A DNA stretch of 64,000 nucleotides from Streptomyces sp. NBC_01335 (GTDB lineage: Bacteria > Actinomycetota > Actinomycetes > Streptomycetales > Streptomycetaceae), in NCBI RefSeq assembly GCF_035953295.1, contig NZ_CP108370.1:7487001-7551000 (forward strand), given 5' to 3'. This document shows, piece after piece, positions 26,206-35,042 of this stretch. A model generated the notes under the pieces. It had not been told where the DNA came from, searched no databases, and saw only the letters and a program-made list of their open reading frames with translations. Within the stretch, counting starts at the first letter, position 1. Each line of letters starts with the position of its first letter. The position numbers were made by a program, and so were the translations under genes.

Positions 26206-27618
26206 CTACTGCCCGGCGCCCCCGAGGATCGGGCGCGGGCTCACCGGTGCGGGGCCCAGGGTGGTGGAACCGGGGGCCGCCCGGTGGCCGAGCCCGGTCC
26301 GGTACGCGTCCAGGGCGGCCTCCGTGCGCCCCGCCCGGCGCAGCAGGTCGCCGAGGAGCCGGCAGATGTCCGCGAGGTCCCCGGCCGCCCCGGCGCGCTC
26401 CAGCAGGGCCAGCGCCTTGACGTAGTGCTCCTCGGCGGTGTCGGTCTCCCCGTCCTCCTCGTGGATCAGCCCGAGGAGCCGGTGCGCCCCGGCCGCGTGC
26501 ACCGCGCCCCGGTCCGGCTGGAGCTCGCCCAGCAGCCGGTGCAGCAGGTCCTCGGCCTGGCGCGCCTTGCCCTGCCGGCGCAGGACGTCCGCGAGCTCCA
26601 CCTCGACCTGCGCCGTGTAGAGGGCCGCCCGCTTCGAGGCCAGCATGTCCCGGGCGGCGAGCAGCTCGTTCTCGGCTCCGGAGAGGTCACCGCCCTGGGC
26701 CCGTACGTAGCCGCGCATCCAGTGGCAGTGCGCCATCTCCGTACGGATCTGGAGCTGCTGGTAGATCTCCGCCGCCCGGGCCAGCGAGGCGTCGGCCTCG
26801 GCGGTGCGCCCGGCGGCGATGAGGGACCTGGCCACCCCGCGGTGCATGCCCGCCACCAGTTCCGGATCGTCGACCCGGGGAGCCAGCGCGAGCGCCAGCT
26901 CGCCCGCCTGCGCCGCCCGTGCGTGGGCGCCCATGTCCATGTACGGCGCGATCGACGCCGTGTACAGCAGCAGGAGCGCGCCGGGGTCCGGGAGACCGGA
27001 GGAGTTCAGCTCCTCGATGGCGCTCTCCAACAGGTAGCAGGCGTAACGGAGTTCGCCCGCCAGCAGGTGCGCGACGGCCCGGCCCCGGACGGCCCGCGCC
27101 CGCTGGGAGAGCGGGGCGTCCGCGAGCAGGCGCTCGGCCGCCTCGAAGTGCCGCCGGGCGGTGGGGAGATCACCGGTCTCCAGGGCGCATTCGCCGAGCC
27201 CCAGGGCTGCCGAGGCGCTCTCCTGGTCGAGTCCGAGCCGGTCGGCCTCGGCGAGCAGCTCGGTGAAGTCGGCCACCGCGTCCTCGGCGGCGCCGGTCGC
27301 CAGGGTGCGCTGGGCTTCTACCAGGCGCAGCCGCAACTCGGTCGCGAGGTGGGCGGGGCGCCCGGTGGCGATCTCCTCGTAACTCACGCCGAGCCGCTCG
27401 GCGAGGTGCCGGACGGCCGCCTCGGAGGGCCGGACCCGGCCCGCCTCCAGCGTGGATATGTAGGCGGGTGTGTACGAGGGTTCGGCGAGCTCGCGCTGGG
27501 TGAGACCGCGCTCCGCGCGCAGCCGGTGGACGCGCCGGCCGATCGTGGCGGGGTCGTCCACCGGTCCGCGTTCCGCCCGACGCCCGGTCGCGCTCTTCTC
27601 CGCCACGTGGCCCCTCAT
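26206..27618 (-). CDS. XRE-type HTH regulator with tetratricopeptide repeats
   Basis: The 470-residue protein starts with a lambda-repressor-like HTH (about 25-80: IGRRVHRLRAERGLTQREL, YISTLEAGR). This is followed by a long array of helical TPR-like repeats, as in Streptomyces regulators that sense small ligands or peptides. ATG 27618 is used; GTG 27605, giving VAEKSATG, is also possible. It lies just upstream of the decarboxylase gene and probably controls it or itself. No ligand can be assigned. Confidence 0.82.
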   Translation of the reverse strand: MRGHVAEKSATGRRAERGPVDDPATIGRRVHRLRAERGLTQRELAEPSYTPAYISTLEAGRVRPSEAAVRHLAERLGVSYEEIATGRPAHLATELRLRLVEAQRTLATGAAEDAVADFTELLAEADRLGLDQESASAALGLGECALETGDLPTARRHFEAAERLLADAPLSQRARAVRGRAVAHLLAGELRYACYLLESAIEELNSSGLPDPGALLLLYTASIAPYMDMGAHARAAQAGELALALAPRVDDPELVAGMHRGVARSLIAAGRTAEADASLARAAEIYQQLQIRTEMAHCHWMRGYVRAQGGDLSGAENELLAARDMLASKRAALYTAQVEVELADVLRRQGKARQAEDLLHRLLGELQPDRGAVHAAGAHRLLGLIHEEDGETDTAEEHYVKALALLERAGAAGDLADICRLLGDLLRRAGRTEAALDAYRTGLGHRAAPGSTTLGPAPVSPRPILGGAGQ

Positions 27619-29846: not shown

Positions 29847-30302
29847 TCAGCCCGCGTCGACCTCCGAGCGGTCGCCGCCCCACAGCGTGTGGAACGACCC
29901 CTCCCGGTCGGTACGCCGGTAGGTGTGCGCCCCGAAGAAGTCCCGCTGCCCCTGGGTCAGCGCGGCCGGCAGTCGCTCGGCGCGCAGCCCGTCGTAGTAC
30001 GAGAGGGCCGCCGCGAACCCGGGCGTCGGCGCAGCGCCGCCTGCGCGACCACCGCCCGCCAGTCGTCCTGTGCCGCGCCGATCTCCCGGGCGAAGTCCTT
30101 GTCGGAGAGGAGGCTCAGCAGCTCGGGCCGGCTGTCGAAGGCCGCCCTGATCCGGTCCAGGAACGCCGCCCGGATGATGCAACCGGCCCGCCAGATCCCG
30201 GCGACGGCGCCCAGGTCGACGTTCCAGCCGTACTCCTCGCTGCCCGCCCGGATCTGGTGGAAGCCCTGGGTGTACGAGACGATCTTGGACGCGTACAGGG
30301 GA
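29847..30302 (-). pseudogene. 3' fragment of a second 6-phosphogluconate dehydrogenase gene
   Basis: Only about the last 150 codons of a Gnd protein are present: [30 protein letters not shown], then after a frame change at about 30022-30032 [19 protein letters not shown], and the final [13 protein letters not shown]. Sequence is also missing at the change point. The fragment stops abruptly at about 30302, where a plus-strand oxidoreductase fragment begins. It is similar to, but clearly diverged from, the complete gnd at 35043, so it is a decayed paralogue and not a recent duplicate. Confidence 0.8.
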
Positions 30303-30973
30303 TCGCCAACATCTGGGCGCGGCAGGCGCCGACGACGCAGGCGGGTGCGGAGACGCTGGCCGCCGCCTACCCGGGCAGGCTGGCGCTCGGCCTCGGCGTG
30401 AGCGCCCGCGTGCTCGTCGAGGCGCACGGTCTGACCTACGGCAAGCCGGTCGACGAGATGACCGCCTACCTCGACCGTATGGACGCGGCGCAAGGACAGG
30501 CGTTCGACGTGCCGTTTCCCCGCCTGCTCGCCGCGCTCGGCCCGAAGATGCTGGAAGTGGCCGCCGCTCGTGCCGACGGGGCCTACCCGCACTCGATGCC
30601 GGTGGAGCACACGGCGCGGGCACGTGCCGTGCTCGGCCAGGACAAGCTGCTCGTGGTCGGTGTCGGAGTCTTCCTGGACGAGGACCGTTCCCGCGCCCGG
30701 TCGGGCGCGAGGCAGGGATCACTCTTCCGCATCCCGGGTTCGCCGTACGTCGCCAGCATGCGCAGGCTCGGTTTCCCCGCAGACGAGCTGGGAGCCAAAC
30801 CGTCGGACCGGGTGATCGACGCGATGTTCGCCTGCGGTGACGAACAGGTCGTCGCCGCACGTGTGCGCGAGCACCTCGACGCGGGCGCGGATCACGTGGT
30901 GGTGCAACCGATGGGCGCCGGCCTCGGCACGCTGGTCGGCCATCTGGAGCGCATCGCGGGCGAACTGAGGTGA
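30303..30973 (+). pseudogene. C-terminal part of an F420-dependent LLM-class oxidoreductase
   Basis: The frame reads [32 protein letters not shown] and [16 protein letters not shown] through to [11 protein letters not shown] and the end at 30973. This is the luciferase-like monooxygenase fold of F420-dependent oxidoreductases. The first 65 or so residues, including the start codon, are missing: the left end abuts the cut end of the gnd fragment. No start codon with a ribosome-binding site precedes it, so it is probably not translated as a functional protein. Confidence 0.75.
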
Positions 30974-32835: not shown

Positions 32836-33455
32836 ATGGCCCACGTTGTCGAGCCGGTCGGGCCGGTACTGGAACCCGCCGCCCAGGCGTTCGCCGAGGC
32901 CACCGACGCGCCGCCTTACCTCTTCGACCTCGGTCCCGTAGAGGGCCGCAAGGCCGTGGACGAGGTGCAGTCCGGAGACATCAGCAAGCCGGAGGTCGAC
33001 GAGGAGTGGATCACCGTGTCGGGTGGTCCCACGGGCAGCGCGCGGGCCCGGATCGTCAAGCCGGCCGGCACCGAAGGTGTCCTGCCGGTGATCCTCTACA
33101 TCCACGGTGCGGGGTGTGTCTTCGGTAATGCCCACACCCACGACCGGCTGGTCCGTGAACTCGCCGTCGGCGCCCGCGCCGCGGTGGTCTTCCCCGAGTA
33201 CGACCTCTCGCCCGAGGCCCGCTACCCCGTCGCCATCGAGCAGAACTACACCGTCGCCCGGTGGATCGTCGAGCAGGGCGCCACCAAGGACATGGACGCC
33301 GCACTCCTCGCCGTCGTCGGCGACTCGGTCGGGGGCAACATGGCGGCCGCCCTGACCCTGATGGCCAAGGAGCGGGGAGACGTCCCGCTGCTCCAGCAGG
33401 TGCTGTTCTACCCGGTCACCGACGCGAGCTTCGACACCGGTTCGACGGAGCCGCA
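32836..33455 (+). pseudogene. 5' part of an HSL-type alpha/beta-hydrolase (esterase)
   Basis: From ATG 32836 (AGGAG 7 bases upstream) the frame gives about 205 residues of an HSL-family esterase. It shows the oxyanion motif HGAG and the nucleophile serine in GDSVGG, ending QQVLFYPVTDASFDTGS. The expected lid, Asp and His regions are missing. From about 33450 the DNA matches a cas1 gene in another frame, while this frame runs on to a stop at 33612 as unrelated residues. The join is a deletion or rearrangement end point. Confidence 0.75.
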
Positions 33456-34221
33456 AAAGGCAACGTGCTCCTGCGCCACGCCCAGCACCAGATCCACGAC
33501 GACGTTGCCGCCCGCCTCGACATCGCCCGAAACATGGTCGCCGGGAAGATCCGCAACAGCCGCTGGATCCTCCTCCGCGCCGAACGCGACGCCGAACCCG
33601 CGGCACGGCTGAGGATCAGAACCCACGCCGACGAACTCGCCGCAGCCCTCATCACGACGCGCGACGCCGAGTCACTCGACATCGCCATGGGCATCGAAGG
33701 CAACGCCGCCCGCACCTACTTCACCGCCCTCACCTACGCACTCCGCCCCTCCGAGAGCATCCCGCCCTTCACCCACCGCAACCGCCGACCACCCACGGAC
33801 CCTGTCAACGCCCTGCTCTCCTTCACCTACGGACCACTCAGGAGCCTCGTCCACGGAGCCGCCGAACAAGTCGGCCTCGACCCCCACATCGGCTACCTCC
33901 ACGGCCTGCGTCCCGGAAAACCCGCACTCGCCCTCGACCTCATGGAGGAGTTCCGCCCCGTCCTCGCCGACCGGTTCCGTCTCACCCTGCTCAACCGCCG
34001 CCAGATCCGCGGCGAACACTTCGAGGTTCTGAGCGGAGGAGCCGTACGTCTCACCGACGACGGCCGCACCACGGTTCTCGGCGTGGAAAGCCCAACCCTG
34101 GGGACACCCCATCGCCGGCCGGGATGTCCCCGCCGGTCTTCTCCCCGTAGTCCAGGCCCGCGTCCTTGCCCGCCACCTCCGCGGCGACCTACCCGCCTAC
34201 CTCCCCTGGACGGCAGGGTGA
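33450..34221 (+). pseudogene. cas1: cas1 3' portion (type I-C-like), 5'-truncated and frameshifted
   Basis: The frame reads GNVLLRHAQHQI, ARNMVAGKIRNSRWILLRAE, GIEGNAARTYFTAL, PVNALLSFTYGPL and HIGYLHGLRPGKPALALDLM. This is the C-terminal alpha-helical domain of the Cas1 integrase, with catalytic Glu in EGNAAR, His in YLHG and Asp in LALDLME present. The N-terminal beta domain (about 85-100 residues) is lost at the junction with the esterase. A shift at about 34077-34081 moves the tail ([16 protein letters not shown], then [10 protein letters not shown]) into another frame. The stop overlaps the cas2 start (TGATG). Adaptation function is lost. Confidence 0.85.
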
Positions 34222-34292
34222 TGGACCTCCTCCTGACCTACGACGTCGATACCACCGCCCCCGAAGGCCGCCGCAGACTTCGCCGCGTTGCG
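34221..34292 (+). pseudogene. cas2: cas2 5' stub running into the CRISPR array
   Basis: ATG 34221 opens MDLLLTYDVDTTAPEGRRRL followed by RRVA, the first strand and helix of Cas2. Homology stops after about 24 of roughly 90 residues, and the DNA passes directly into the first CRISPR repeat. A deletion therefore removed the rest of cas2 and the leader. The start overlaps the cas1 stop, which is normal for this gene pair. Confidence 0.8.
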
Positions 34293-34610
34293 ACCTCCGG
34301 GGCGACCGAGGATCGCAACAGCGCCACCGCGACCTGTGCCGGGGAGAGGCCGGTAGTGGCGGTCGCCCTCCGGGGCGACCGAGGATGGCAACGGCTCGTA
34401 GGTCTGGTAACCCGAGCCGGACGCTGTGGTGGTGGTCGCTCTCCGGACGGCCGAGGATCGCAACGCGACACACAGGGCGCCGCGCAGACCGCACGCGGCA
34501 TGCGGCGGTCGCCCTCCGGACGGCCGAGGACCGTAACCCCAGGGGGTCGGTGTAGCGGGCCTCCCACGACCCGGTGGCGGTCGCCCTCCGGGGCGACTGA
34601 AGACCGCAAC
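34289..34610 (+). CRISPR. Small degenerate CRISPR array, five repeats, four spacers
   Basis: Repeats are at 34289-34319 (5' part altered), 34356-34392, 34429-34464, 34502-34537 and 34574-34610. They are 36-37 bp, with first half GTGGCGGTCGCCCTCCGGGG and second half CGACCGAGGATCGCAAC; GTCGCCC and GGGCGAC form a 7-bp stem. Spacers are 34320-34355, 34393-34428, 34465-34501 and 34538-34573 (36-37 bp), all different. Repeats differ from one another at several positions (for example GGACGGCC for GGGGCGACC in the third and fourth), which suggests an old, no longer renewed array. It follows cas1 and cas2 remnants. No interference genes are in the window. Confidence 0.88.
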
Positions 34611-35042
34611 TTCATCGCGCACCAAGATCGGTAGCACCGCCAAGGGCCACGCCGCATGAACGCTCACGGGCTCGTCGTGGCAGGTTCCGAGCTCGAGCCG
34701 CCAGGGACTTTTCAGGGACTTTCAGCTCTGTCGGAGGGACATCGAGGGAGTTTTCGCTGTACAAGCACGGAAGGCCACGACAGCGCTGAAAGGCCCACGG
34801 CTTCGGGCTCGACCCTCCGCGCCGTCGCTCCACAGCACTCCGGCACGGCGGCGGGCAGGGTAGTAGCAGGCGAGACCCTTCGGCGTCATGCACGGTCCTG
34901 ACCTCGCAGAATGCGCTTCGGCGTCCTTATACGTCGTGGCGCGGACTATGGTGTGGGCCTCGCTCATCTCCGCTGATCTCTTCAGCTTCCCGATCGCCTC
35001 TGGGGCGATTCCGCTCCGGTGTCGGCTCTCGCGGGTGGTTGG
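34611..35042. other. About 430 bases without a supportable gene
   Basis: No frame reads as a recognised protein. It contains the direct repeat CAGGGACTTT (two copies at about 34702-34721) and the long inverted repeat 34715-34796 listed separately. The trailing end of the array is on its left and the 3' end of gnd on its right. Confidence 0.5.
34715..34796. repeat. 19-bp imperfect inverted repeat enclosing 44 bases
   Basis: The arms 34715-34733 (GGGACTTTCAGCTCTGTCG) and 34778-34796 are reverse complements with two mismatches. They could be a structured RNA, a terminator region or the ends of a very small transposon relic. Confidence 0.55.

Follow-up and report, generated by a model that had tools for sequence, protein, structure and literature searches.

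A truncated type I-C cas1-cas2-array remnant joined to a broken esterase gene on a Streptomyces chromosome

Gene fragments, junctions and repeats at the locus

The window (the whole stretch of DNA analyzed, 64,000 nucleotides of Streptomyces sp. NBC_01335) contains, reading forward, the 5' part of an esterase gene, a type I-C cas1 gene without its start and with a shifted frame near its end, the beginning of cas2, and a short CRISPR array (Table 1). All forward frames were read, with Pfam and NCBIfam profile scans. Among the named matches to the stretch, the best are to Streptomyces, and the genome is listed as 100% complete. The stretch was compared with plasmid records, with as many as 392 genomes of the genus (the genome itself among them), and with named genomes (the best 80 of 562 relatives).

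Table 1. Coordinates of the remnant, its neighbors and related loci (window positions unless contig C1 is given)
Feature	Position	Strand	Remarks
Window	C1:7487001-7551000		8.36-Mb genome, 4 contigs
Oxidoreductase (flanking landmark)	31020
Alpha/beta-hydrolase (hormone-sensitive-lipase-like esterase) gene, 5' part	32836..33443	+	about 200 of 321 codons
Left junction, esterase/cas1	33441..33444	.	TC at 33442-33443 fits both parents
cas1 (type I-C), open frame	33444..34083	+	from about residue 84 of 344
Conserved Cas1 residues (alignment and coordinates)	Glu 33696-33698, His 33900-33902, Asp 33936-33938	+
11-nt deletion shifting the cas1 frame	34083..34084	+	relative to two intact cas1 genes
cas1 3' end in shifted frame, own stop codon	34084..34223	+	86% identity, residues 300-343
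cas2, first 24 codons	34221..34293	+	92% identity to reference Cas2, residues 1-24 of 96
Right junction, cas2/CRISPR repeat, direct	34291..34294	.	CG fits both
CRISPR array remnant	34283..34610	+	five repeats of 36-37 nt, four spacers of 36-37 nt
Repeats	34283-34319 (partly cas2), 34356-34392, 34429-34464, 34502-34537, 34574-34610	+
Conserved segment of about 277 bp, no recognized gene, right of array	34647-34923		78-84% identity in longer matches
gnd (flanking landmark)	36497
Other, whole esterase copy	C1:8087819-8088751
Type I-E operon (L039)	C1 about 6729300-6740600		cas3, cse1, cas7e, cas5e, cas6e, cas1e by NCBIfam

At the left, positions 32836-33438 match Abhydrolase_3 (Pfam, E=6e-36) over profile positions 1-112 of 210 only, and LipP1 (E=3e-43) with 148 bits against a cut-off of 350. 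Compared with hormone-sensitive-lipase-like esterases of the Abhydrolase_3 family, the N-terminal two thirds are present, including a GDSVGG stretch that we take to be the nucleophile motif, whereas the C-terminal third, which in these enzymes carries the triad Asp and His, is absent. The fragment is thus short of a complete alpha/beta-hydrolase domain with the full triad. The 3' part of the gene is absent from the window, and the genome matches it only once (E up to 1e-4), next to the other esterase copy, which is whole.

In blastn comparison with plasmids, esterase homology stops at 33443 or 33444 in the five best esterase matches (H7-H11), and the six annotated cas1c matches start at 33442 (four, H3-H6) or 33459 (two). 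A prior sequence-only reading had described a conserved esterase frame breaking off at about 33450 and Cas1 following in another frame, and the end of esterase homology at 33443 with cas1 starting at 33442 bears this out. Ungapped, base-by-base comparison gave an identical left breakpoint in seven esterase loci and nine cas1 loci; 11 esterase loci were tried, and four on the opposite strand, which were mis-anchored, were left out. In one esterase locus (L019) the base preceding the shared TC fits as well. Past the junction the esterase frame runs through 56 unrelated codons to a stop at 33612. An esterase-Cas1 fusion protein was considered and ruled out, because the esterase and cas1 frames differ.

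The cas1 piece matches Cas_Cas1 (PF01867) with E=2e-67 and, as its best NCBIfam model, TIGR03640 cas1_DVULG (type I-C) with E=1e-78 over profile positions 79-291 of 340; the TIGR03640 score, 265 bits, falls short of the 385 cut-off, as would be expected for a truncated gene. Cas1c identity is 82% to Streptomyces acidiscabies NRRL B-16521 (L041), and 72% and 73% to the plasmids of S. rutgersensis NBH77 and Streptomyces sp. NBC_00057. By alignment, about 83 of 344 residues, or a quarter of the protein, are missing, rather than the N-terminal half as first supposed. The C-terminal domain does keep its Glu, His and Asp regions as claimed: all three conserved residues, which we take to be the catalytic metal-site residues of a Cas1 endonuclease, are present by alignment and by coordinates. 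The piece stays open over 214 codons, and the frameshift noticed after the Cas1 domain is the 11-nt deletion near 34083, seen against two intact genes.

Codons 1-24 of the 96 in cas2 are kept and a repeat follows, in agreement with the earlier claim that the cas2 start is present. The right junction lacks the remaining part of cas2 as well as the leader and some leader-side units; in the intact plasmid loci L030 and L031, the cas2 remainder and roughly 140 bases separate cas2 codon 24 from the array. The cas2-to-repeat deletion and the array to 34610, lying beyond the coordinates of the sequence-only reading, are additions to it.

The repeat at 34356-34392 matches the type I-C repeat on the S. 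rutgersensis plasmid (L030) except at 1 base in 37. The remaining four diverge more from that unit, and the later ones carry more changes; such changes are common at the old end of arrays. Rfam CRISPR-DR9 matches at 34356-34392 with 26 bits (E=0.0022), under its gathering score of 45. A search of the whole genome for further copies of the typed repeat with up to 3 mismatches returned two matches, both inside this array.

No convincing protospacer was found for the four spacers among phage records (four records of two phages, E=0.3), and a search of viral contigs with one 20-mer per spacer matched for one spacer of the four; in the two contigs concerned, the full-length spacer agrees at 25 and 26 of 36 bases. 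Spacer 1 matches positions 26594-26629 of the window at 27 of 36 bases, a value reached by none of 300 shuffles (maximum 26). Nine bases mismatch, including two within the first 10, and the site lacks a directly adjoining upstream TTC, the type I-C motif that PMC12231136 cites for B. breve. For these reasons the site was not accepted as a target, although the match is not fully explained; it may be chance or an old, decayed self-match. The other three spacers match the window at an ordinary level (reached by 75 to 170 of the 300 shuffles), and spacer 3 reaches 27 of 37 in the host type I-E locus, a raw score without shuffle comparison.

Intact type I-C loci, the rest of the genome and the surroundings

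Type I-C systems usually have the order cas3-cas5c-cas8c-cas7c-cas4-cas1-cas2-array. The type I-C comparison comprised 22 distinct loci in 23 rows (L036 and L043 are one locus), the rows being 17 of the 80 named-genome loci, three plasmids and three further genomes. Cas1 and Cas2 matches are nearly full length in all 22 distinct loci. Cas1 of the kind found in the remnant is carried by 3 of 391 other members of the genus (3 of 294 in an overlapping, smaller sample), and the loci of these three are all intact. Flanks were compared after excluding esterase, TetR and oxidoreductase rows of less than 45% identity, and in the available flank, which is limited by several short contigs, an esterase (at least 45% identity), the TetR neighbor or gnd was found at none of the 22 loci. 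The anticipated relatives, having an intact esterase beside an intact cas operon, therefore did not appear in this set. Nor does any genome examined carry the same junction.

Two side observations concern the intact loci. By a loose repeat pattern, five of nine type I-C loci (L030, L031, L035, L041, L043) have repeats upstream of cas3 too, reversed in four and forward in one, and in two of the nine (L046, L047) the pattern detects none. On the S. californicus plasmid (L035, 5898-6715), cas8c is annotated as two separate parts on either side of an IS5-family transposase gene; the type I-C system of this plasmid is perhaps also on its way out.

Of the cas genes, only the cas1 and cas2 pieces are present at the remnant locus. 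Queries with Cas7c and Cas8c found no match in the whole genome. The Cas7c query matched in all three of the other carriers of this Cas1 and not in this genome; the Cas8c query was run without a positive control. The sole other Cas1 in the genome belongs to a type I-E operon. In this operon cas2e was identified by eye, and the 253-aa protein in the cse2 place has no match at the NCBIfam threshold. On one side the operon is flanked by an array with 22 spacers, and on the other by a group of four repeats. The locus had been called a fossil of CRISPR loss, and the type I-C remnant is indeed real, but the loss is of type I-C only, as the type I-E operon and array remain.

Homologs of the conserved segment right of the array were examined at 12 loci. 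In nine they immediately follow the 3' end of a 3-hydroxyacyl-CoA dehydrogenase gene, which in four of these is represented only by its C-terminal part; of the other three, two are beside a serine dehydratase and one is interrupted by the end of its contig. Matches occur in 64 of 295 genomes, many of them to a shorter core at about 34701-34792; the two loci of this kind that were examined are beside a serine dehydratase. The genome's own 3-hydroxyacyl-CoA dehydrogenase ortholog (C1:1324053) has no downstream match to the segment. No Rfam family was found in the region right of the array, and predicted RNA structure there is as stable as that of shuffles (z=0.03). The segment looks like a dispersed, non-coding Streptomyces element.

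Some 3 kb away from the cas remnant, the pair 29853-30298 / 30347-30970 forms another broken junction. Here a second copy of 6-phosphogluconate dehydrogenase is a frameshifted C-terminal fragment (residues 334-484), and the luciferase-like monooxygenase gene beside it is without the first 90 profile positions.

Origin of the remnant and rival explanations

Together, the fragments and junctions very probably constitute a non-functional remnant of a type I-C CRISPR-Cas system, made by at least three lesions. A type I-C system without Cas5c, Cas7 and Cas8c can neither process nor use array RNA, and without a whole Cas1, Cas2 and the leader nothing can be added to the array. From the missing parts we infer that the remnant does not function, and the locus is almost surely dead.

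The left junction would be the product of an end-joining-type event at about 2 shared bp, in which the esterase was broken near codon 200 and fused to cas1 near codon 84; the esterase's 3' third and the cas genes upstream of cas1 are gone from the site. If the genes stood in their usual order, no less than about 7 kb would have been removed; L030 and L041 have about 7 kb between the start of cas3 and codon 83 of cas1. A further lesion would be the 11-nt deletion inside cas1, and another a second short-homology deletion that took the leader-proximal end of the array together with the leader itself and three quarters of cas2. We infer that the left junction arose by one deletion, and likewise the order of events; a single deletion is the simplest version for that junction, plausible but unproven. 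One event that removed the interference operon together with the 5' part of cas1 had been proposed, and for the left junction it stays plausible. It cannot explain everything, however, because the cas2-repeat deletion and the 11-nt deletion in cas1 are separate, giving at least three lesions. The placing of the esterase beside cas1 by a single deletion finds no support in the 22 distinct type I-C loci, none of which has such an esterase in the available flank.

Substitutions do not distinguish the cas1 piece from a living gene. Its pN/pS against nine relatives is 0.36-0.62, compared with 0.18-0.56 in eight chosen pairs of intact genes. An excess in relative rate gave Fisher p of 0.001 to 0.19 depending on the outgroup, but intact genes give similar counts, and the outgroups of the test were not checked on a tree. 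Of 98 strictly conserved columns, 3 are altered in the piece, whereas the 12 intact genes have 0 to 6 altered each. Relaxed selection was accordingly given up as a proof of cas1 decay, since intact genes behave alike in a comparable test. Because these tests fail to separate the piece from intact genes, the break in cas1 is probably recent, and the piece, judged on its sequence alone, could pass for a selected gene. The case for a dead locus is therefore made by missing parts, rather than by substitutions.

A serious rival, less probable than loss in place yet of real weight, is that a cas1-cas2-array piece, already truncated, was imported from another replicon or chromosome site and end-joined to a broken esterase. 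It gains its standing from the patchwork character of the area, in which the segment right of the array seems to have come from some other site (the dehydrogenase ortholog of this genome has no downstream match to it) and a gnd copy and a luciferase-like gene nearby are also cut short. The lack of an esterase, TetR neighbor or gnd in the available flank of the 22 distinct type I-C loci is also in its favor, as are the relatives of type I-C cas1 on Streptomyces plasmids (6 in the best 20 of 56 records). A simple insertion, on the other hand, would leave the 3' part of the esterase at the right, and the only match in the genome adjoins the whole copy elsewhere. An empty or intact ancestral site was seen in no close relative, and this applies equally to the deletion version.

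Three further explanations are each very improbable. An assembly or sequencing error would agree with a junction present in no other genome examined, but two junctions and an 11-nt deletion within about 850 bp would each need a separate error, and the lack of a Cas7c or Cas8c match in a 100%-complete genome yet another. Residual activity, by a Cas1 catalytic-domain fragment made from an internal start or by use of the array RNA by the type I-E machinery, might be suspected from the conserved cas1 piece, open for so many codons, and from the nearly canonical repeats nearest the junction. The host type I-E repeat is unlike the type I-C repeat, however, and most of Cas2, the leader and the Cas1 start are missing; moreover, G+C is about 70%, and long open frames are common by chance in such DNA. 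Finally, it is hardly to be expected that the type I-C system was lost by attack from, or redundancy with, the resident type I-E system, the deletion being the product of CRISPR targeting CRISPR: of the 22 type I-E spacers compared with 23 type I-C loci, several share the best full-length match of 24 of 32, which is background-like. An 18-nt exact match of the type I-E array to cas7c in two loci was rejected, as it is partly repeat and the 32-nt spacers are at background. A past, since-lost type I-E spacer against type I-C is conceivable.

Standing of the remnant among known systems

In summary, a type I-C remnant formed by several lesions provides a base-level example of the orphaning of a CRISPR locus on a Streptomyces chromosome. 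Its importance is modest; it also cautions against taking a strong Cas1 profile match in an open frame as a sign that the adaptation module works. The junction is not described in the searched portions of the literature, including PMC12231136 and PMC4762764, and no wider absence is claimed. According to the available passages of PMC12231136, 46 of 70 Streptomyces genomes have arrays, slightly more than half of those also have cas genes, and two systems are of type I-C; the same passages describe a short Streptomyces array without cas genes, having four spacers, on SCP1. Remnants of such kind are ordinary, and cas-less arrays are common in Streptomyces.

Relative to the type I-C systems of Streptomyces plasmids and chromosomes, the cas1-cas2-array order is the same here, whereas the locus lacks cas3, cas5c, cas8c, cas7c, cas4, the start of cas1, most of cas2 and the leader. 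Like the SCP1-type arrays, the locus has a short array without a working cas operon; unlike them, it has broken cas1 and cas2 genes still attached, which show how the array was orphaned.
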